Assembly: GCF_000189635.1 (NCBI RefSeq)
Contig: NW_002475930.1
Location: forward strand, 124,001 to 188,000
Source of the DNA: Tetrahymena thermophila SB210
Taxonomy: Eukaryota > Ciliophora > Oligohymenophorea > Hymenostomatida > Tetrahymenidae
Length of the DNA stretch: 64,000 bases
Direction: 5' to 3'
Shown here: positions 118 through 55,352 of the stretch, one piece after another
Position numbering within the stretch: the first letter of the stretch is position 1
Layout: each line of letters opens with the position of its first letter
Program-made: the position numbers and the translations under genes
The notes under the pieces: generated by a model
What the model was told of the DNA's origin: nothing
What the model saw: only the letters and a program-made list of their open reading frames with translations
Databases searched by the model: none

Positions 118-1845
118 TCAGTTAATATATTGCTTAACAAATTCCAAAAGGGCATAACCATTTGAGTGTTAAGAAACATAAAGCTGTGGGTGAGTTTATT
201 ATTGATGTGAATTAGCCCATTATATAAGCTATTGCTCACTATTCGAGACACATATAGAGAAATTTGCTAACTTTAGCATTCCATCATCATTCATTGTGTC
301 TCCAAAAGCAGCAATAACAATATCATTATCTTGCTTATTGATGAGTATATCTTCATATTTGAATTATTTGCTTTTTATTTATTAGGCCTTATTTTGTATG
401 AACTCTAGCTACTCGCTCATATTGCGTTTTTACTCCTCTAGAAGTCTTTGCTGACCTGTTAAATCATCCTTAAATATTATTTTCTAATTTCTCATTTATA
501 TGTAAGGGTAATAAACTTTATGAAGGAGATACTCAAGAGCCAGCCCTTTATCAGTAATTTAAGGTACTATTTCAACATGCATCAGATTTTACTTTTCCCT
601 AATTACTGCATTAAACCCTATGCCTATTTCATTAAGTTCTTACTCTATTTATTTAAACTCATTCTCTCTCTCATAAAATACACTAATTTCGCTATTGTAT
701 CTTAGAGACCATACTTCAGGATCATTCCTAACTTTAAATTTCAACCAACTTGATAACTTTTGCATCTTTTCAAATATTATTTATGGTTACCAAATCTTAG
801 CTAGCTCCATTAGCCATTACTTATCTAGATACAATATACCTTTTGTATAGTCTTTCAAATAAATATATGAACCACATCTACCTATATAGTAATCAGGCAT
901 AATTAAACTCTCTCTTTTCATCAAGAGATTAAAAGGGTGGATTCCTCTTCCTGAGTTATATATCAATTTACAGGATTTATCAAACCAAAAGTATTTAATC
1001 CAGTACTTCATGAATTCAAGTGTTGCTTCAGGTTTACCACAAAGAGTACCACCTAGATCTGTTGTTATAATTAAGCTCTTTCTATTTGATCTCTATTCTA
1101 CTTCTATTAACTCTTAGTTATAGACTACTAACCTCTTTACATTATTATTTTAGTTGTTCTATCCCTCATCAACTTGATTATTTATATTATAATAGGGATT
1201 TTTAAATATGAGTTCTTTAAATTATTCTGATGATTAATCTACATGATTAATTATTACTTATTCTTTTTATTGGCATGGTTTTACTTCATATTTATCTTAC
1301 TATTTCTAGGTAGAGCTTTCTTATTAATTATTTTAGACTTAGTTCTATGAAAAAACAACTAAATTGCCTTTTTATTGGTTTATTTCATCTAAAATTACCT
1401 CTTAGTTATTTTAAACAATTTGTTTCGCTTGTAAATCATCTTAATTTGCTTTAATGCTTAGTTGAGTGTCTGTAGAATTTATATTTTTGTTTTCTACATG
1501 TTTTATTTATATGAATTAGCAATTGGACTGTAAGTAACCTTTATAAACATTGAATGCTCTTTTAGTTCTTTTCATTTCCTATGAGTTGATCAGCTATTTC
1601 TGCTCATTATCTTCTTTAATTTATTCTAAAATAAATGGAGGTTTATGATTAACTAAGTTTTCTGCATTAAACTACACACTTTCATCATAAGTAGAAGGTA
1701 AACATTAAAAATCAAAATAATATAATATGACAGAATATTGGTTTTATTGCATGCTGATTGAGACATTAGTTGACCTGTTTAAATTTTATTCTTTTTGATT
1801 TTCTAATGGAAACTTCAATTCATTTATAATAACGTTGTTGTCCAT
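118..1845 (-). CDS. HAD-superfamily, sucrose-phosphatase-like protein (possible pseudo-phosphatase)
   Basis: Single-exon frame of 575 aa in the ciliate code, ATG at 1845 and TGA at 118-120. Residues 1-255 are Gln/Asn-rich and unrecognised. From about residue 258 the protein matches the S6PP/Cof-type HAD hydrolases that cleave phosphate from sugar phosphates: motif I TTDLGGTLCG (nucleophile Asp263), motif II YNSGRG (Ser298), a PDYYIGRCGS segment typical of S6PP proteins, the motif III lysine in TDKGLALEYLL (Lys433), and motif IV FGDTMNDDGML (Asp516, Asp520). The oddity is motif I: the second Asp of the usual DxD is Gly265, and in ordinary HAD phosphatases that Asp is the general acid/base. The rest of the active site is kept, so the protein may have altered chemistry or only bind ligand. 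The N-terminal extension is absent from typical family members. Family assignment is firm; substrate and activity are unknown. Confidence 0.82.
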
Positions 1846-15496: not shown

Positions 15497-16939
15497 TTTT
15501 ACAAATTATTTAATTTCTAGTTGAATAAAAGCAAAATATTATTAGATTTTGGCTAATAAATAATTATATAGGAAACTTTAAATTAGATAGAATCTGTAAT
15601 GAATTTTTGCATATTTTTAAATCATAAAAAAACCATCACAACATATTTTAAAAAATAGATAAATCAACTCAATTTAAATATTTTATTTTTACAAAATCTT
15701 TTATTGATTTAAATTCATTATAATTATGAGCATAAAATACTATTTATAAAACCAAAACTCATTTATAAAATATATTTGATCTATTGTTTTGATAATCTTA
15801 AAATTTGTCAAAATATTTCAATAAATTTCGTTAATTTAGTTAAAATTTATTGTTTTGAACTATTATTGTTTATTTAAGAATTAGATATTTTTAAAGATTT
15901 CACTTTATTTACTTAATATTTTTATAAAATCAATCAATATATCAAATTGATTTTTAAAATTTCAAATTAAATCTAGTGATTTTATATATCAAAAGTAAAT
16001 CATTCAAAACATTTTCAATATAATATTTATAAACTATTCAGATCACAATTTTTGAAGGCATTTTTATTATCTGAAATCATTTTTTAAATTATTGTTAAAA
16101 TTATTTACATTTTTGTAAGAATAAGTATATTAAATTAATTAAAAATTTATATAAATGTACAAAATTCCATCAAATTGTCTTTTAATTTTTATAAGAATGA
16201 GTAATTTAAATTGATTTAAAAATTGAATTAAATGCACAAAAAAAGTTCATCTACATCTTTATGTTTTTATTTTCAATACATTCTCATTATAAAATTATTT
16301 ATTAAATTAAAAGTTTATGAGTTATTTTAAAAATTTGAATTCATATTTTTGAATTATATTTATTGTGAATTAAAATTGAATGTATTTTTATTTTACTTAA
16401 ATATATTTTGTAAAAGATCTATTGTAAAATTTAAAAAGTATTCAATTAATTTATTTTTGTTTATTTGTTAATTATTATTAATTGCATATCTCTTTTTATT
16501 CAAAATACTCATTTTTTATTCTTATTAAGTTTTCTTTTTGTTTTGAAATTTAGAAATAGGGCTTCACTAATATTTATTAGTTATTTTTATGTTAAAATTC
16601 AATCAAAAATTAATTATAATAAAAATTTTAATTCAGTAACAATAATATGAAACATATTTGTAAATAATTAAATAAATAATGCTGAAATTGGAATATGATA
16701 TTGTGTAAATTAGTATTACGTTTATGTTCTTTGTGGCAATTGATTATTTAAAAATGAGAAATACCATTTAATATTAATGAATTAGATAGATATATTAATA
16801 TTTAGTTAACAGAAATTATTAAATTAATCTTAATTAATAATACGAATTTACTTACGATTAATTTAATATTCTACTCAATAGGATTTTGGTGATTTTATTA
16901 ACCAAAATTAATATCTCACTTCAAAATTTACATTTAAAA
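15497..16939. other. Divergent intergenic region
   Basis: About 1.4 kb of very AT-rich DNA between the start of the minus-strand giant gene and the start of the plus-strand Gln/Asn-rich gene. It must hold both promoters. A 61-codon open frame near 16465 has a Phe/Leu/Ile/Asn composition expected from AT-rich noise and is not called. No other structure was seen. Confidence 0.7.
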
Positions 16940-19915
16940 ATGAATGAACAAATAAATGAAGAAGTGAATGTAGTAGAACAACAAATCTTTTAAAATGGAG
17001 GCCAAACTAAATAGAATCAGTAAGCTTAAGTAATCAAGAAAGTCAAGAAAGATAAGAACAAAAATTAAAGAAAAAACATGAAGAATAATGCTTAAATACT
17101 AACTGAAGAAGAAAAAGCTGTGAATAAGTTAATGGTAGTCTCTTCGAGCAAAGAGAATTCTCTTTCTAGATAAATAATAGAAGATATTAATAAGGATAAT
17201 CATGAACTTATATAGGTAGATTTAAGTCATTCATCTCTTAAAGACTCGAATACGAGCTGCGGATGGGATGATGGGTTTCATATTAACTATCATTTTTGTG
17301 ATTTAAAGCACTTTTGTTCCTAGATGTAGTCTTTAGATGATTTAGATAAAATGCCTTAAAAAAATCAAAACTAAAAAGAATCAGGAAACGATAATAAAAA
17401 TTAGAAGGATACAGGGAAGTAAAATAATTGTGATAATTGCATGCATAAAATGAGATATTCTCCTTACTTTTAACTGAAGAAACAAGAAATCGCATCACAA
17501 GACAGATGTAGAACTATTTATTAAAAACAATACTAATAAATAATGTAAAATGATTAAGTTTGCTAATGCAAAGATTTTCAATAATAGTAAAATATTACTC
17601 AAAATGGGTTAGTTGAAAAATCTGTCTCCACAGTGAAATCCATCTATTTTTAAAAATCGAGCTAATTTCAGTTTAGTTCTAATAAAAAATTTATAAAAAT
17701 GCTGAGAAAACAGTCTTAAAATATAAGCTATTAAACATAATAGCAGCAAAAGTAGGATAATGACTAAGAAATTGCTCGTATAACTAGAGCAGATATGAAT
17801 GGAGAAATAGTATAGCTGAAAGATATATACAGAAATAAAAAAAATATAAATGTAAGTTCTTATGATGATGATATTTTAAAATAGAAATATGATGGTAATT
17901 TCCATCAATTTCACTCTAATTCTTCTGAAAGGCAAAGTCTAAGAAGCCAATATAAAGCCATTCTAGATTATTACAGTATTCCTTCACCAAAACTGTCATA
18001 AATAAAGTTTAATCCGAATTAATTAAAGACAACTAATTCAAATGTTACTTCATAAGGGTAAAAAATAAAAATTGCTGTGGATAACTAAAAGCAATAAAAA
18101 GTTTCTATAAATCATGTTAATGCTGAAAATAATTATTGCTCTAACAAGAATAACATTTACTCATCACCTAATTTTTAGGACTCCAGTGCTTTGTAGGAAA
18201 ATCCATTTAGAACTATCTAATCTACTTCACCATTATGCTAGAAAAATTTAAATGAAAGCCATCCCATCTAAAGATTAGCTCCATTAGATGTTCCTGGCGA
18301 AGAAACAAAGTCATTATTTAATTAACAAAATAAAAATATTAATTAAAAATTATATAAAACATCACCTCTCTCCAAGCATTGTAGCTCTCCTTTTGATAGA
18401 TTAGATTAGTTATAGCATCCTTAGGTTTTAAAAAATAGCTTTAAAAACATAAAAAAAATATTTTTTAAAACTCCTGATTCTGCCATCAGCCACGGGAGTG
18501 AGAGCACTTTAGAACATAGTAGATTGTAAGAGGTGAAAAAAAATGACAATTCCTCAAATACATCTAACTATGAGACAAATTTACCTAAGCTAAACTAAAA
18601 TTATTAAGCCCAACAAAATAATAAAATCAATCCTGAACTAAAAAATTAGGCTAGCCAAAAAAACTTAAACTAACGCATGCAAAAACATAAATTAGAAAAT
18701 GAATTACTCAGAACAACTACAAGTGATGTAAGTGATACGTCATTAGACCAACCGCTTGAATAGAGAGAGGAGGTGCTATAAAAAATTGAGACTTAAGGCT
18801 TTTAAAAAATTTTTCTAAAAGAGCATAATTAAGCAAAGAATTAGAAAAAATGTAAGGACTTGCACAACTCTGATGATAATATTGCAAATAAAGAAAAAGA
18901 TGAGAATAAATATGAGAGTGTAAATGATAGATAAAATAATATGCTAAAAAAATTAAGTCCAAATAAATAAAATGGAAAAAATGAATTATAATTGTAATAA
19001 ATACTTGAGCAATCGCATGAATAAGTTCATGCAAATAAAGTGAGATTTATTTAGAAAAATAAATAAAATACAGAATAGAATCGGCATATTGATGAGCATA
19101 AAAATCAAAAATAAATATTAAGCGAAGATTCGTCAATAAAAAGTAGTAACAATAAAAATTAATTGGTAAATTAAAGACAGTAGATTATAAATAATTAGAA
19201 ATCTATATAATTAAATAAAAATGCTTAAAGTGGGGAGAAGGAATCGGATGAAGGTATCAGAGAAACCATAAAAATAAATTAGTAAAATTTTTAAAATGTA
19301 AATGATTTTTCTTACATAAATAATAATAATTTATCCATTCCTGTGTAACATTTATAAGCATCTATTAATAAATCAATTAGAACAAAAGAAGATTAGCACT
19401 CTACAAATGTTAACAAAAAGTAAGAGTTACCTGTAAAAAATGCAAGCAGACAAAAAGATATTTAGCATAATAATTAAAATCAGTCTGAATTTACAGATTA
19501 ATTGAATATAGAATGTTAAAGCTATTTAGTATCTTAAAAGCCATTATATAAAGTAAAACCCTTTTCTAGAGAGTATTAATATCCACCAAATTACAAAGCA
19601 TTATGCAACGAAGTTGATAAAAATAGAAGTAACAACAACAAACAAGATCTTGAAGTAAAATAAACAAACTAAAACAAAATCAATAATGAAAAAATACCTC
19701 ACACAAATTAATTATTTGGTTCAAATTTTTAAAATTAAAAAAGCGAAATAACAATTTTAACAATTGAAGAAAGTGAAGCAAACGAAATTAAATTACCATC
19801 TATAGCAATTTATACTCATAAATTTAATTGTAACAATGATCTATATAATAAATCTAAAGTTGCTTATAAACAATCGCCTTCAAGAAATAATTTGATTGAT
19901 TCTAATTTATCTTGA
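16940..19915 (+). CDS. Gln/Asn/Ser/Lys-rich low-complexity protein, 991 aa
   Basis: An uninterrupted frame of 992 codons from ATG 16940 to TGA 19913-19915 in the ciliate code, with no intron needed. Many Gln residues are encoded by TAA or TAG. The protein is hydrophilic, without signal peptide or membrane segment, and rich in Gln, Asn, Ser and Lys. The most distinctive part is around residues 100-125, a Cys/His-containing patch (SCGWDDGFHINYHFCDLKHF); a second cysteine cluster (NNCDNCMHKMRYSPYF) follows near residue 160. These could bind metal, but they match no zinc-finger pattern I know. Several SP/TP sites suggest phosphorylation. The long Gln/Asn-rich tracts imply a largely disordered, probably cytoplasmic or nuclear protein. 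I do not recognise the family. The length of the open frame makes the gene call strong although the function is open. Confidence 0.8.
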
Positions 19916-26867: not shown

Positions 26868-28010
26868 TCAAACTGAAGCTTAGGCTACTTTAGTAGCGTA
26901 ATCTTGCAAAAATTGAACTAAACAAGTTATTGCTTCATCAGTTGTTGCTAAACCTAATGAAACTCTAATACCTTAACCTCTTTTATTTTGCAATCCTACA
27001 ATGCCTCTCTTGTTGGCTTCTTCTAAAAAGTGTTGATCTTGCTAAACTCCTAAGACATTAAAAACTATATGAGTGTTTGAGCGGAACTCTTCAGAGATTT
27101 TATTTTGATATATAAGAGGATGAGCATCGATTTCTGTATAAATACGATGTGCATAGCCATTTATTTTCTTTTGGATTTCCTTTACTCCTCCCATTTTTTC
27201 TGCATATAAGAAGAATTAGGCGTTCATATATTAAGGGAATGTGGGTGGAGTGTTTGGTAGACCGTCTGTGGCCTTCAAGGCAGCATAATCAATCATATAA
27301 GGGCATTAGGGATGAGGAGTTCTCATAGCGGATTCTCTAATTATCAAGAAGATAGATCCAGCTATACCTATTTGATATTCACTGCTAACATAAGCAACAT
27401 CTATTTATGACCAATCAATTTCTCTAGTTAAGAAATCTGCAGATAAGTCTGCAACCATTAAAGCATTAGGAGCAATATCAGTTTAACGTCTAGGTTAAAT
27501 GTTAAGAGCTATTCCATCAGCGGGTTCATCAGAAACGTAGTGAATGTAAGCTGTATTAGCTGATAAGGGTTCTTGGTCTGCCAAAGTAATTTTTTTAGTT
27601 CCAGGAGTGAGTTGAATATTTTAAGTGATATTAAGATGAGGAACATATTTTTTAGCCTCATCAATAGCTCTTTGGCTCCAATATCCCGAATTGATGTAGG
27701 TAGCAGTATCTTTTTTATCCAACAAATTAAGAGGTACAGCTGCTATCTGCAAAGCTTAACCACAGTGCATAGTGTAGATCTTAAATTCTGCAGGAATTCC
27801 TAGAAGTCTTTTCATAGCTTGTTCACCTTATGCAATGTAATTCAAGAATTTTGGATTTTTGTTGAACATTTCAATCATAGTGAGACCAACGCCAAAGCAA
27901 TTATACCATTCAGCTTCAATTTATTATAACATTTCCTAAGGTAATCCAATCTGCTCGCCATTAAAATTGTATTTTCTACCTTAAACAGGTTATTAGGGTA
28001 ACTTGTCCAT
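26868..28010 (-). CDS. Phosphoserine aminotransferase homologue lacking the PLP lysine
   Basis: Intronless, 380 aa (family usually ~360-370), ATG at 28010 and TGA at 26868-26870. It aligns end to end with PSAT, the class V (fold I) aminotransferase of serine synthesis: [57 protein letters not shown], the PLP-ring Asp in [30 protein letters not shown], and a C-terminal [13 protein letters not shown] arginine segment. The Schiff-base lysine is missing: where PSAT has AGAQKNIGPAG this protein has [11 protein letters not shown], with Tyr212 in place of Lys. The N-terminal FSAGPA-like signature is also replaced ([12 protein letters not shown]) and the GGGS loop is altered. The frame is intact and codon use is normal, so it is not a decayed pseudogene. 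It is either catalytically dead with a binding role or uses other chemistry. The fold call is firm; transaminase activity is doubtful. Confidence 0.85.
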
Positions 28011-30018: not shown

Positions 30019-32219
30019 ATGAAATAATTATTAAAAGCGAATTTGAAAAATGGAAGAAAGTCTTAAAGATTTCTGATTTATACAATCATTTTAAGTTACT
30101 TGTTTATGGTTGTCTTGTCATAAAACTCCTGTATTTATTTATTTTTTTATTTTCCTCATAAAAATACATATCAATCAATCAATTTAAATATTTCTATTAT
30201 TTACTCTCGTAATAGTTTTGAGTAAGAAAAGGAGTCTTTTTTCAAAATAAGACACAATTAATTTCAGCGGCTCTAAAAAGTACCACGAACCAGGTAGTGC
30301 AGAATTTAACTTTGCTATAGCTATGGTTATTTGTAAACTTCTAATTATTTATAAATGATCTGAAAGTCATGTTTAAATGTAAAATAATCTTAAAAGTTTT
30401 AGTTATGATGGCAGGCATTTGCTCTGGCTTAAATGTTGGTCTTCTCTCGATTGATGTCGTAGCATTAAATCTTAAGATAAAGAGTGGAACAGAAAACGAA
30501 AAGAAGAATGTAATTAAATATGTTTTATTATATTATAATTTTAATTTAATTCAATGATACATATATTTTCTTTAATAAATTTACCTATTTTCTGTATAAT
30601 ACTCACTAACTATATATATTCAACTTTAAGAAGTAATATCTATCTATTTTATTCATTTCGAAATACAGGCATAATAAATTTTAGATGTTCTTTCAAATCA
30701 TCACTTGCTATTATCGACTCTCTTAGTTGCAAATGCATTAGCTATGGAAGCTCTTCCTATATTCTTTCATGAAATAATCCCTGCAGCATTTGCTGTTTTA
30801 TTTTCAACTATTATAGTAGTCGTATTTGGTGAAATTATTCCATAAGCATATTGCACAGGTCCTAAATAATTCGAAATAGCCTCAAAAAGCTTGCCTATTA
30901 TAAAGTACATTTAATATTAAATATATATTCTTAATTTTTATCAAAGAATAAAATTGCCTATATTCAACTAATAGATTGTTGATACTCATTTTTTGGATTT
31001 TCTGTTTCCCAATAGCAAAATTCTTAGACTGGTTATTAGGCAAGCATGACAGTAGTAAATATAGAAAGAACAAAAAAGATTTAAAGGCATTAATTGAACT
31101 CCATGAAAACGGATAGCATGACACTCATTTATAGCAAGTAATAATTAATTATTTATGATTGGTGAATAAAATAGGCACCTTATTTTTTTCTAATCTCAAA
31201 TAATTAAAAATTTTTCAGAACTCTTTGATTTTTATGACACATAATCAATAAAAAATAATCTTATCTGTACATTTGCTTTTAACAAAGTCTTTTTTGTCAA
31301 TCTTTAGAATTCAATTTTAAACATTTTCTTAAAACTATTAAAAATAAAAATAGTTTGGATTCAATAAACAAGAAGTAATGATGATTTCATCAACCCTCGA
31401 TTTAAGAGAACAAAAGGTTACTGAAAAGATGATTAAGTTAGATGATGTAAATAAATTTTACATTTTACTTTTGTTACAAATTACTTTTCTCTAATATGAT
31501 AGTGCTTTATGCTTAATACAGAAGACATTTTTTCGAAAGAACTCATTTTAAAGATAAAATAAAGCGGTTTCTCTACAATTCCTATTTATGACAAGGTTAG
31601 AACTAATATTATTGGATGCTTAAGAACAAAAATTATATTAGGATGCGAAAACAAGCATTTAAATAAGGTAAAGAAAGTTTCTTACTATTAATGTATTAAT
31701 AAAAATATAATATAAAAAGCCTATAGCCACAAGATTCCCTCTAACTTAGTTATTGATGATAGCAAAAGACACAAACATGCTTTAGATGATATAAATCTTT
31801 TAAAAAAAGAAATGTAGTCTAGCAATAGTTACAACAGAAGAAAAAAAGAAGAAAAACAATGAAGAATTGTTAATGAGTGTAATTAATTTAATTTTCAAAT
31901 ATAATCCAGTAGCTGAAGTAATATTGAATTAATATTAATTTATATTTAGTGCAGAGATATGATTGTTGAGCATTATAGTCAAATTGAAGGTATTATCTTT
32001 TTGAAAGATGTATTTGAAGAAATAGTAGATATAGACTTCTAAGATGATGATTTGCATATTAAGGTTATTAATACATTATTTTAAACTAATAATTTTATAA
32101 ATTTTTGTCTTTTTTATTAGCATGATGAAAAAACTAAAAAAAAGACCAAGAGCACTATGAAAATAAATAACTCCCTACAAGAACCTCTTATAAGCCAAGG
32201 ATCAAATAAAAAAAACTGA
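30019..32219 (+). CDS. CNNM/Mam3-like membrane protein (DUF21 + CBS)
   Basis: Multi-exon gene. Exons whose phases agree are 30019-30221, 30268-30332, 30367-30509 and one beginning at 30669; later exons cover the CBS pair, with TGA at 32217-32219. Order: an N-terminal hydrophobic segment (FLIYTIILSYLFMVVLS, probable signal or anchor); YHEPGSAEFNFAIAMV; the DUF21 core MAGICSGLNVGLLSIDVVAL and NALAMEALPIFFHEIIPAAF with VVVFGEIIPQAYC; a further span ending FPIAKFLDWLLGKHD; then the CBS region (STLDLREQKVTEKMIKLDDV, QSGFSTIPIYDKVRTNIIG, ATRFPLTQLLMIAKD, EGIIFLKDVFEEIVDIDF). This is the ancient conserved domain family (CNNM in animals, Mam3 in yeast, CorC relatives in bacteria) linked to divalent metal, mainly Mg, transport in plasma or organelle membranes. 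The C-terminal cNMP-like domain of animal CNNMs is absent; only a short Lys-rich tail follows. Several mid-gene exon borders are approximate. Confidence 0.85.
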
Positions 32220-41354: not shown

Positions 41355-44080
41355 TCAAAGATCGAACTTGATACCTTGAGCCAAGGGGAGAGATTTACCG
41401 AAATTGACAGTGCAAGTAGATCTTCTCATGTATTATTTCCATGAATCTGAACCACTTTCACGACCACCACCGGTTTCCTTTTCACCACCGAAAGCACCAC
41501 CTATTTCAGCACCAGAAGGACCAATATTTACATTAACAATACCAGTGTCAGCTCCCAAAGGACCAGTCCACTTAATTTTAATTTAAAAATAAAATTTTAA
41601 TTACAGAATATTAAATTTATAACTTCAGAATGATTCTTCTAATATTAGTAATTTTTATGTTATTTACCTTAAAGAGATTTTGGAGATTGCTAGTGAAAAG
41701 AGAAGCAGAAAGACCTTAAGGAACAGAGTTATTGATGGCAATAGCTTCATCAAGGTCATCAAACTTCATAATGTATAAAATAGGAACAAACAATTCATGT
41801 TGTAAGATAGGAGCATAAGGATTAGTCATTTCAACGATAGTAGGTTCAACAAAGTTACCAGGTCCATCCATAACCTTTCCTCCAGTTAAAATCTTACCAC
41901 CTTGTTCTTAGATTTACTTTAAACCATCTTCATAGATCTTAATTTGAGCCTTTGAATGTAAAGGACCACAAAGAGTGCCATTATTTAAAGGATCACCAAC
42001 AACGACTGATTTGTATGCTTTAACAAGTTTTTCCTTCAAAGATTCATACTTAGAAGAGTGAATTAACTATTTTATATTTAAAATAATTTTTTTTATTTAA
42101 AATTTCGATGCTATTTAAATTAATAAAATTAATTTGTTTTTCTTTCTATAAATTAATTTGGTAAAAAACCTAATTCTTTTTACAATTAACTAATTGATAG
42201 CTTTCTATCTATTTATATAATTAACTAATTCAATTTGCTTTTTTATTCTCAAAAATAAATATTATTTTTATTACAAGTCTTCTAAGGGAAGTACATCTTT
42301 GACCGCAAGTACCTACGGCAGCGAAGCAGGAAGCCTTTAATGCTAATTCTTCGTTGGCATCTTCACAAACAATTAAGCAGTTGTTACCACCCAATTCAAG
42401 GATAGTCTTACCAAATCTCTTGCTAACCTTTTCAGAGACGATTCTACCGACTTGAGTTGAACCAGTGAAAGAAATCAAGGGGAATCTCTTGTCTTCAACC
42501 ATCAAATTACCGATATCAGCTTCACCCATACACAAGGTTAAGGCAGCTTTGGGTAAATTATTCTTTTCTAAGATATCAATGATAATCTTTGTGCAAGCAA
42601 CACTGCAAAGAGAAGTAGAAGGAGAACCTTTCCACATAGTCAAGTTACCGCAAACAGCAGCAATCATGAAATTCCATCCAAAGACAGCAGTGGGGAAATT
42701 GAAAGCGGAGATGACACCAACTAAACCTATAATTTTGATATAATTTTTAAATTTAGAATAGAATTATCAAGTAGAAAAAAATATAATAAGATTTTTAAAT
42801 AAAATCTAAGGAATAATCAACGAATGAATAAATGAATGAATAATCCAATCAAAAAGATTAAATTTTTCTGGAAAGATATTTTGAAAAATCAGATTTTTTT
42901 GATAAAGTAATAAATATTAACAATTTTTTATATCTGATTATCTTAAATAAATCTTTTTATGATAATCAAAAAAATAAATAGAAGGTGGGGAGATCAAAAA
43001 TTTGTTAATAAGGAAAATATTAATAGTTTTTTGTATTATTTACTAACTCATTATTAAGCTAATAAAGGTTTATTTAAACGTAATAAAGATCTAAATAGAG
43101 AGTAGCTTAAGATTAATTTAATTACTGAATTTATTTAGACCTTCCATTAAAGTCAAAAATTGTAAATTTATTTATTTATTTTATAAATTTTATTACCAAG
43201 AGGGTTCCATTGCTCCATCATAAAGTGATCAGGACGTTCAGAAGGAATAATTTAACCATTGAGACTTCTAGATAAACCGCAAGCCATATCACAAATATCA
43301 ATAATTTCTTGAACTTCACCTTCTCCTTCAGCAACAATTTTACCTACTTCTAAGGAAACAAGTCTACCTAAAGCAGCCTTGTGCTTTCTGAAAGCGTCAC
43401 CAATTTAACGGACGATTTCACCTCTTCTGGGCAAGGGTAACTATAAGTATTTTTAATATTTAATTAAAAGAATTCATATTTGCAAATTTTAAAACTACCT
43501 TAACCCATTCAGCTTTAGCTTTATTCATATTTTGGACAGCTACTTCATATTCTTCAGGGGTAGCACCTCTAACTTCAGCGATAACCTAATAAAATAAAAA
43601 TAAAATTAATTTTCTGCTTCCTGCATTAGTATAATTTAGATTAAGTTCTCATTTGCAAATTATTAAGTCATAATTGGTCTTTTAAACTGACCATGTATTT
43701 AAAATTTCCAAATCAAGCTTTATGAGGTAAATGTCAAATAAGCCAAAACTTATCTGATTTCAAAACACTTATTGCCAAATTTATTTTCATCTGTTTAGAG
43801 CTCATTGGAATGTAAATTCTTTTTGAAAAATAACATCCAAAAGCTTTAAACAAAATAATTTTTGGAATTTTTTATTTATTTTTTAAGGTAATCATTATAA
43901 AATGCAAACTTTTAGTTAAAATAAAAATTGGATATTTACTTCGTTGTTGGTTGGGTTGACTGACAAGAAAGTTTTACCATTACCAGTCCACTTCTCACCA
44001 TCAAAGCAGCCGTGGTTAGTTTGTTCAAGACCTAATTCCTTAAGGAAAGGGTACTTTTCAAAGGCGAAAGTTTAAGACAT
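41355..44080 (-). CDS. ALDH7A1: ALDH7A1-type aldehyde dehydrogenase (antiquitin)
   Basis: Six exons, all in phase: 43940-44080, 43499-43585, 43197-43440, 42275-42726, 41668-42066 and 41355-41570, giving 512 aa. It matches antiquitin throughout: [20 protein letters not shown] at the start, [18 protein letters not shown], the NAD-binding FTGSTQVGR, the general-base Glu in [11 protein letters not shown], the catalytic Cys in [32 protein letters not shown], and the C-terminal [20 protein letters not shown] that marks the ALDH7 group. The enzyme oxidises α-aminoadipic semialdehyde to α-aminoadipate with NAD+ in lysine breakdown and also handles lipid-derived and betaine aldehydes. All catalytic residues are present. 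No obvious mitochondrial presequence is seen, so a cytosolic location is more likely. Codons are more GC-ending than in neighbouring genes, which suggests high expression. Confidence 0.95.
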
Positions 44081-49133: not shown

Positions 49134-50474
49134 AGTAAAAAGAATTAATGAAAGAATCAAAAGCTAAATAATGAAGAAAATAGTTAATCAATTAATAATA
49201 CTTGAAATATAAATTAAAAAGAAACTAATCAAAATATAGTAAAACAGAACGACACTCATTCATTTATCAATAAAAATTTCAATAAATATTTAATGAATAG
49301 GTAGGTAAATAATAAAATCAAAAAATAATGCACTAAAAATATAAAAACAAAATTTAGATAATTTCAATTTGTCAACCAACAACTTATTAACAAACAAACA
49401 TACAAATAAACAAAAAACATTTCATGTATATTTATTTTGTTTTAAAATTAAATTTAATGCTTTATAATAATTTTAAATCAAAATATCTAAATGTTTTAGT
49501 ATAATTACTTATTACTTATATAATAAATAAATTACCCTTTTTAATTAAGTCAAATAAAAATACTTTTAAATTACTTTAAAATTGAATTTACTTTCCTTTA
49601 AATCAATTAAATATTCTAATATGTATACTTGAAAATATACTAATATGTATACTTGATACTAAACTATTATTAATTTTGATAATGAAATATTAAATTTTTA
49701 GAAACTAATTTTAAAATATAACAGGATATTCAATATCACTGCTTTAAATTATTAACAATAAAGTATAGAAATATTACTCATTTAAATTAAGATGATTTTT
49801 TAAAAGATGCACTAATTTAATAATTTTTTTAATTCAATAAATTTTCTTTTAGGATATTTTAAAAATTAAGTTTAATTAATTTTATTGAAAAAAATAATAC
49901 TCTATTTATAAATAAAAAATGTTGATTTGCTCAAATTAAAATAAATTTTTGAATAATATTCTAAATAACAATAAATATTTTTTAATAACTACTAATATGT
50001 TCAAATAAAATTTTTATAAAGAAGAAGAATGAAGTAAAATAAAAACTTATTTTGAAAAGATTTCAAACAATTAAACTTTCGTTTTAATTTATCATTCTAT
50101 TTTTTTTAAGTGTTTCTAAAATAAAATTCTATAATTTTAAATAACAAATTTTAGAGCAAGATTCAGTTTTATTAATAATTTTATTTGCTTATTAATTTAG
50201 AGTTAATAATAATTAAAATATTATTTTCGCTGTGATTATTAATAATATTTATTACTAGATAAATGAATAAGATGACTTGCTAATAATACTAGAAATTTCT
50301 TTTATCTTTTAACTTATAAATCAAATTTTTTGAATAATAAAAGAAAGATACATTTATTGATTTATTGACTTATTGAATGAATGCAATGAATTTGATTAGA
50401 TTCTATCAAATTATAATTAATAATAAAATCTTTAGTCAAATTTAATACATTTATTTATAAATATTTATTTAAAA
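49134..50474. other. Intergenic region
   Basis: 1.3 kb of AT-rich DNA between two plus-strand genes. It has a 24-bp tandem duplication of 'ctaatatgtatacttga' near 49617-49660. No gene seen. Confidence 0.65.
49617..49660 (+). repeat. Two-copy tandem repeat
   Basis: 'ctaatatgtatacttga' occurs twice, about 24 bp apart. Each copy contains the palindrome gtatac. Confidence 0.6.
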
Positions 50475-52453
50475 ATGATATTAGCAAGATAGTTAAATAA
50501 TTTTATTAAGCTAAACAAGAGAAACTTAATTGCAACTACCTTATGTTTCTCTTATTAAAAACATTTTTCTAGTGTTACTGAGTAAATTCGTAAAGAAATC
50601 GAAGAAAAAAAATCACCTTATGGCAATATTACTCCAAAGATTATAGAGTTAGCAGGCCAAGAGTTGTATAAGCAACCTAACCATCCTTTAGGAATTATGC
50701 GTTATAAGATGGAAGAATTTTTTACAAATGACAAATATAAGAAGGGCTTTTTGCATGAAAAGAAAAAGTTTCCTTTCGTAATTGGAGATAGTTTCTCTCC
50801 TGTAATCAGTGTTCAGTAGAACTTCGAAGATCTTCTCATCCCAAAAGATCATGTTTCTCGTAAAAGATCAGATACTTACTATATTTCTGAAAATTACATT
50901 ATGAGACCATAAGCAACTGCAAATGAGCGTAACATGTTTGAACAAAAAGCTGAAGCTTTCGTTATTTTTGGTAATTACTTTATTTTGTTATTTAAGAATT
51001 ATAATAGAAATTGTCATTAGATTTATTTAAAATGCAAGATTATCTCTATCAAATTCATATTATAAAAGAAATAATATTCAAGATGTTATGTATTTTAAAT
51101 TAAAATTTTTTTTTATAAAATATAAGCTGATTGCTTTAGAAGAGACGAGATAGATGCAACACATTACCCTGTTTTCCATTAAGTAATATATAACTAATAA
51201 ATCGAAAAAGAGAAAATAAAATAAACTTATAGAATCAAGATTGAACTTTTTCTTAATAAGAATTAATTAAATATTTAAATGAAAATAAATTCAACAAAAA
51301 ATATTCTATTCAGCAATAAATTTAATCAATTTAATGTAATTAACTAATTTTGTATCATATTAAAGATGGAAGTTGTTAGAGCATACACTCAAGATTACTT
51401 TGATACTAAGAATGAAGATATTAAAATATAAATGGTTATGAAGGATCTTTAAGAAACATATGAGAGTTTAGTCAGAAATATTTTTGGTGAAGATGTTTAA
51501 TATAGATGGATACCAGCTTATTTCCCATTCACGGAACCTTCTTTGGAAATGGAAATATATTTCAATGGAGAATGGGTAGAAATGTTTGGATGTGGTATCC
51601 TTCGTAAAGAAATTATGAAAAACTTCGGAAGACATGATGATGATATTGCATGGGCATCAGGTGGTGGCTTAGAAAGATTCGCAATGCTTCTTTTTGGCAT
51701 TCCTGATATTAGGTTATTTATTAATTTAAAATTATACTAAAATAAGTTTATTTGCCTACTAACAAAAGTTTAATCTTTTGGATGGATAAATCTACTTTTA
51801 GAATAATAAAAAGTTAAAAATATCGTTTGATTTAATTTAATTATTTTTATTTCTATAGACTTTTCTGGAGTAAAGATTCTAGATTTTTGAATCAATTTAA
51901 GGCTGGACAAATTAACAAATTTTAGCCATTCAGTAAATATCCTGCTTGCTATAAGGATATATCTTTTTGGATAAAAGATATGACAACTTTTGAAGAAAAT
52001 GATATTTATGAAATTGTGAGAGAAATTGGAGGTGATCTTATTGAATAGGTAGAGTGTGTTGACACCTATGAGAATAAAAAGACTGGGAAAACTAGCAAAT
52101 GCTTTAGAATAAATTACAGATCATTAGAAAGAACTCTTACAAATTAAGAAGTAAAATTTTTATTTCGACCCATTTTAATTATCAATTAAATATCTTTTGA
52201 ATATTTACTTGAATATTTAATTAATGTCGTTTTTAGTTTTTAGGTTAAGATTGAATAAATAAAAAAATTTTTATTTATTTTTTTTATGCTAATAAAAAAT
52301 AAGAATATTCTTTCGGCATAATAAATTTAATTGTTAGTATAATAACCTAAATTAATTAATTAAGATTATTAAGAAGAACTTTCACAAACTCTGTTCTAGC
52401 TTAACTTGTCGAATAATTTCTTCATTAACTTTTTTTTCTTAAAAATAGATTGA
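50475..52453 (+). CDS. FARS2: Phenylalanyl-tRNA synthetase, mitochondrial (single-chain) type
   Basis: Exons 50475-50970, 51127-51182, 51366-51712 and 51859-52150 join in phase. A last exon follows, either from 52244 or from 52237. The start [20 protein letters not shown] is a good mitochondrial presequence (basic, no acidic residues). Class II synthetase signatures are clear: [32 protein letters not shown], motif 2 [17 protein letters not shown], and motif 3 [20 protein letters not shown]. The C-terminal ferredoxin-like anticodon-binding domain follows ([43 protein letters not shown]). It charges organellar tRNA-Phe as a monomer, unlike the cytosolic α2β2 enzyme. The 3' end is uncertain: the TGA at 52252-52254 and the one at 52451-52453 both fit different acceptor choices, and the last ~20-60 residues cannot be fixed by eye. 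Confidence 0.88.

Positions 52454-55352
<2,899 letters not shown>

Follow-up and report, generated by a model that had tools for sequence, protein, structure and literature searches.

A transaminase homologue without its Schiff-base lysine raises the question of what such a protein can still do. This question arose for a gene in a 64,000-nucleotide stretch of the Tetrahymena thermophila SB210 genome (contig NW_002475930.1, positions 124,001 to 188,000), referred to here as the window. The gene is intron-free, lies on the minus strand at 26868..28010 (ATG at 28008-28010, TGA at 26868-26870) and encodes a 380-residue homologue of phosphoserine aminotransferase (PSAT; SerC/PSAT1). An earlier note, made from the letters of this DNA, had described a tyrosine in place of the lysine that binds pyridoxal phosphate (PLP) and proposed several roles for the protein. 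We confirmed the loss of the lysine. Judged from its sequence, the protein is probably a pseudoenzyme of the PSAT family that now serves as a noncatalytic partner or a binding protein.

A PSAT homologue that has lost the catalytic lysine

Under translation table 6 (the ciliate code), the frame is unbroken from the Met at 28010, from which residues are counted here, to the TGA at 26868-26870, and 18 TAA or TAG codons are read as Gln. The intact frame of 380 residues given by the earlier note was thus recovered. A codon-usage score trained on 1651 codons of other genes in the same genome was +0.44 bits per codon for this frame and negative for the remaining five. Because the score was positive in all nine scored 40-codon blocks and fell sharply at both ends (-0.44 just upstream of the Met and -0.42 just downstream of the stop), 26868-28010 is a single coding exon.

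The protein matched the NCBIfam model PRK05355 with 253.8 bits, passing the cut-off of 253 by 0.8 bits, and the model TIGR01364 with 239.5 bits, which is below the cut-off of 443.6. By curated cut-offs, membership of the PSAT sequence family therefore just holds through the first model and does not hold through the second. In a six-frame search with TIGR01364, 11 of 14 control genomes gave any match, and 4 of the 14 exceeded the cut-off. The Pfam model PF00266 (Aminotran_5) was matched with 53.6 bits. Homology to solved PSATs spanned the full length (E values down to 2.7e-59), identity to enterobacterial and Vibrio PSATs was 30-34%, and a confident structure model has the PSAT fold.

For the analysis of single residues, a MAFFT alignment of 108 rows was built from the window protein, 103 bacterial PSATs, the PSATs of E. 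coli, human and Arabidopsis, and a second Tetrahymena PSAT from a contig labeled C10. The bacterial rows comprised 72 loci from a search whose matches included enterobacterial and Vibrio PSATs, 1 from viral contigs and 30 from a search of genomes of one bacterial class. The column of the Schiff-base lysine (Lys198 in E. coli) holds Lys in 102 of the 103 bacterial rows (X in the other), in the E. coli, human and Arabidopsis enzymes and in the C10 protein. In the window protein, it holds Tyr212, encoded by TAT at 27375..27377 on the minus strand. Since the Lys residues closest in sequence are 140 and 246, no adjacent lysine substitutes for Lys198. Both the replacement and its cost in base changes stood as the earlier note had put them, TAT being at least two changes away from any Lys codon, and the alignment left no nearby lysine as a stand-in.

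The lysine is not the only catalytic residue that has changed. Roles and subunit origins of site residues were taken from reports on the Arabidopsis (PMC6043687) and human (PMC10031235) structures and were transferred to E. coli numbering by alignment. According to these reports, Trp102, Thr153, Asp174, Ser176, Gln197, Lys198, His328, Arg329 and Arg335 come from the same subunit, and His41, Arg42, Asn239 and Thr240 come from the other one. The window protein retains 7 of these 13 residues, which, like its homology and predicted fold, it shares with SerC/PSAT1; it differs from SerC/PSAT1 by the missing Lys and by the replacement of Gln197, Thr153, His41, Arg42 and His328. All positions that follow are on the minus strand. 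Among the six PLP contacts, four are retained: Asp188 (27447..27449) corresponds to Asp174, the partner of the PLP ring nitrogen, whose presence had been noted before; Trp111 (27678..27680) corresponds to Trp102, which stacks on PLP; and the loop Asn253-Thr254-Pro-Pro (27243..27254) corresponds to Asn239-Thr240-Pro-Pro, whose Asn and Thr extend to the phosphate of the PLP held by the other subunit. The two that are lost are Thr153, which hydrogen-bonds O3' of PLP and is replaced by Pro163 (27522..27524), and Gln197, which in known PSATs forms a hydrogen bond to the PLP phosphate and is replaced by Glu211 (27378..27380). The substrate-phosphate site is more heavily altered. Asn50-Lys51 (27858..27863) replace His41-Arg42, the ligands provided by the other subunit, and Lys343 replaces His328, leaving Arg344 (26979..26984 for the pair), the equivalent of Arg329, as the only one of four residues retained. 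The substrate-carboxylate ligand Arg335 is kept as Arg349 (26964..26966), and Ser176 is also retained. Two further divergent elements of the earlier note were found again: the glycine loop, which in known PSATs holds the PLP phosphate through its backbone, reads Cys83-Gly-Gln-Ala86 (27753..27764) instead of the GGGR of E. coli, and Glu19-Gln20 (27951..27956) replace the near-invariant Gly10-Pro11 of the N-terminal GPA signature.

With Lys198 and several cofactor and substrate contacts gone, the protein should run no ordinary transamination cycle, and it is very likely not an ordinary transaminase. Near-invariant columns were retained more often (49 of 94) than other columns (72 of 257; p = 4e-5). 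Together with the intact frame and the host-like codon usage, this agrees with the suggestion of the earlier note that the protein is maintained.

A second PSAT, the serine pathway and the origin of the gene

A search of the genome for a second, lysine-bearing PSAT, as suggested before, was successful. TIGR01364 matched two PSAT loci exon by exon, namely, the window gene and the one on contig C10, and a genome search with the window protein as the query added no third. The C10 gene (97750-99471, minus strand) consists of seven exons with six GT-AG introns and encodes 374 residues, including the motif AAAQKNLG. Its product scored 306.3 bits with PRK05355 and 300.9 bits with TIGR01364 (below the cut-off of 443.6) and, among solved chains, was closest to human PSAT (8a5v) by phmmer score. 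It retains seven of the nine same-subunit site residues and one of the four from the other subunit. Among the residues of the other subunit, His41 has become Gly, Arg42 has become Asn and Thr240 has become Met, and of the Asn239-Thr240-Pro-Pro loop only the Asn is left; among those of the same subunit, Pro stands in place of Arg329 and Thr in place of Ser176. Because the equivalents of His41, Arg42, Arg329 and Thr240 are lost, the C10 PSAT may not use phosphoserine. At 21% identity between the two proteins, a recent duplication of the C10 gene is an unlikely source of the window gene.

Genome profile searches revealed no clear gene for phosphoglycerate dehydrogenase (PGDH) or phosphoserine phosphatase (SerB), although such searches can miss genes and 8 of the 15 SerB matches were examined. 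The PGDH and 2-hydroxyacid dehydrogenase domain models matched one locus, a 267-residue fragment. Its best scores came from D-lactate dehydrogenase models (211 and 184 bits), followed by PGDH (178 bits), and each was below the cut-off of its model. The SerB model gave 15 weak matches, the best with 30.5 bits against a cut-off of 144. All eight examined matches fitted P-type ATPase models best (60.9-128.2 bits versus 30.1-33.5 for SerB); Pfam by itself gave them no more than HAD domains and two weak flippase-domain matches. That profile searches of this genome can miss genes is evident from PF00266, which listed four loci with neither PSAT among them, though the window protein itself matches this model. 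Two of the four were examined and resemble cysteine desulfurases, with scores short of the curated cut-offs for that enzyme. For another ciliate, Paramecium tetraurelia, a published survey (PMC5715807) reports the serine pathway as undetected.

The best matches of the window protein were enterobacterial, with a highest identity of 34% (33% among the one-class genome matches listed). In that bacterial class, 311 of 369 genomes had a match, and none stood out (32-33% identity in the best rows listed). For a tree, the 108 rows were reduced to 31 by length and by identity (under 72%). It set the window protein beside enterobacteria (92/94, unstarred), with 5.1 changes per column on its end branch, the longest in the tree. 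Neither a clade that joins the window protein to the C10 PSAT nor one that joins it to eukaryotes was rejected (AU p 0.41-0.42). Twenty-four columns distinguish the 58 rows of the enterobacterial/Vibrio group from the remaining 48; of these columns, the window protein shares 3 with the first group, 5 with the second and 16 with neither. Horizontal transfer from enterobacteria, hinted at by the best matches and by the lack of introns, was dropped because no bacterium stands out, the column test gave 3 versus 5 and so long a branch has no firm place in the tree. Viral contigs yielded no relatives with the window protein as the query, and a two-row alignment query led to one bacterial-type locus. 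The long branch and the pattern of retained residues fit the long-term change of role that had been suggested for this protein.

Ten further open frames of the window were scanned against Pfam. Five matched: a sucrose-phosphate phosphatase-like hydrolase domain (121-1845, minus strand), a CNNM domain (30558-31046, plus), an aldehyde dehydrogenase domain (41551-42474, minus), a class II tRNA synthetase (F) domain (50361-51827, plus) and a glyoxalase domain (54508-55140, plus). These neighbors have no apparent tie to PSAT. A stop-to-stop open frame of 1044 codons (16781-19912, plus) had no Pfam match at E 0.001. Elsewhere in the genome, 78 residues of a RIB43A-type protein agreed at 77 positions with PDB 6u0u_A (also 8g2z), which are T. 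thermophila entries, as would be expected if the genome is that of T. thermophila.

Possible roles of the window protein

In the PSAT dimer, each active site includes residues supplied by the neighboring subunit. We tentatively favor the possibility that the window protein is a partner of the lysine-bearing C10 PSAT. It would work through protein contact, as the noncatalytic half of an asymmetric dimer, and its intact Asn239-Thr240-Pro-Pro loop would reach across to the phosphate of the PLP in the C10 subunit; the pair might act on something other than phosphoserine. The pairing is attractive because the C10 PSAT has lost most of the residues that can be lent, some of which survive in the window protein. 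The closest known kind of protein is SPT1 (LCB1) of serine palmitoyltransferase. According to the literature (PMC6148460), SPT1 is lysine-less and forms a heterodimer with a lysine-bearing relative, with a presumed single site. The window protein is likewise a lysine-less homologue of a PLP enzyme with a lysine-bearing relative in the same genome; it belongs to another family, however, its putative partner is only 21% identical, and the pairing itself is a proposal. No lysine-less PSAT was found in the literature searched, whose coverage leaves out most subscription papers. Rather doubtful is the further step that the PSAT was split into an asymmetric one-site pair and shifted to a nonphosphorylated substrate after loss of the serine pathway.

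Several observations weigh against a partnership with the C10 PSAT. The gain from mixing subunits is small: a mixed site would hold 9 of the 13 site residues, compared to 8 of 13 in a C10 homodimer and 7 of 13 in a window homodimer. The bias between same- and other-subunit retention is not significant in the C10 PSAT (Fisher p = 0.22) and is absent from the window protein (p = 1.0). The window protein has lost its site residues no more often than other near-invariant ones (7 of 13 retained versus 42 of 81), so losses were not concentrated in the active site. Finally, the two proteins share only 21% identity, and the tree leaves their relation unsettled (AU p 0.41).

Almost as likely as a pairing with the C10 PSAT is a stand-alone homodimeric pseudoenzyme, which would serve as a sensor or scaffold, independently of the C10 PSAT, by binding either a protein or a carboxylate ligand. 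With Trp102, Asp174, Ser176, Arg329, Arg335 and the Asn-Thr-Pro-Pro loop kept, a carboxylate pocket may remain, and the low identity to the C10 protein also fits this possibility; the altered glycine loop and Glu211 would, on the other hand, be unfavorable for PLP. The roles proposed in the earlier note fared unevenly in this comparison. A regulatory or partner subunit is slightly favored. A phosphoserine sensor is disfavored, since three of the four substrate-phosphate residues have changed and no clear enzyme of the phosphoserine route upstream or downstream was found. New chemistry has a low probability; Thr153 and Gln197, which hold O3' and the phosphate of PLP, are lost as well.

A gene in decay is unlikely. 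PSAT could have become dispensable once the serine pathway was lost, leaving the protein to drift; the failure of the genome searches to find a clear PGDH or phosphoserine phosphatase, an end branch longer than any other in the tree (5.1) and the unspared site residues point in this direction. Against decay stand the 380 open codons with host-like codon usage in 9 of 9 blocks, the retention that still favors near-invariant columns and the confidently predicted structure. So long an end branch without a stop or frameshift would also be hard to square with neutrality.

Altered chemistry is less likely than either of the two binding roles, and we regard it as improbable. Here the window protein would be a lysine-free enzyme using PLP or pyridoxamine phosphate (PMP), with Tyr212 acting as an acid/base like the His of ColD and E1. 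According to one report (PMC8987622), His in place of Lys is functional in the sugar 3-dehydratases ColD, E1 and SpnQ. These enzymes share the aminotransferase fold and the replaced catalytic Lys with the window protein, which also keeps Asp174, Trp102, Ser176, Asn239 and Thr240. In contrast to the window protein, which has Tyr and damaged contacts to the PLP phosphate, they have His at this position and bind PMP. The exchange of Thr153 for Pro and of Gln197 for Glu, whose charge should repel the PLP phosphate, argues against such an enzyme, and the literature and alignments examined contained no relative of the aminotransferases in which a Tyr at this position is catalytic. A Lys codon misread through a sequencing or assembly error can practically be dismissed, because at least two changes would be needed to give TAT and further near-invariant site residues (Gln197, Asn199, Gly195, Thr153, His41 and Arg42) are altered as well.

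For annotation, these results call for caution, as PRK05355, a curated "phosphoserine transaminase" model, accepts a protein without the catalytic lysine. The lysine-less PSAT and its lysine-bearing counterpart, from which most of the lendable residues are gone, would constitute a clean test of how a homodimer evolves into an asymmetric pair. Tetrahymena thermophila is a genetic model, in which this could be tested directly.
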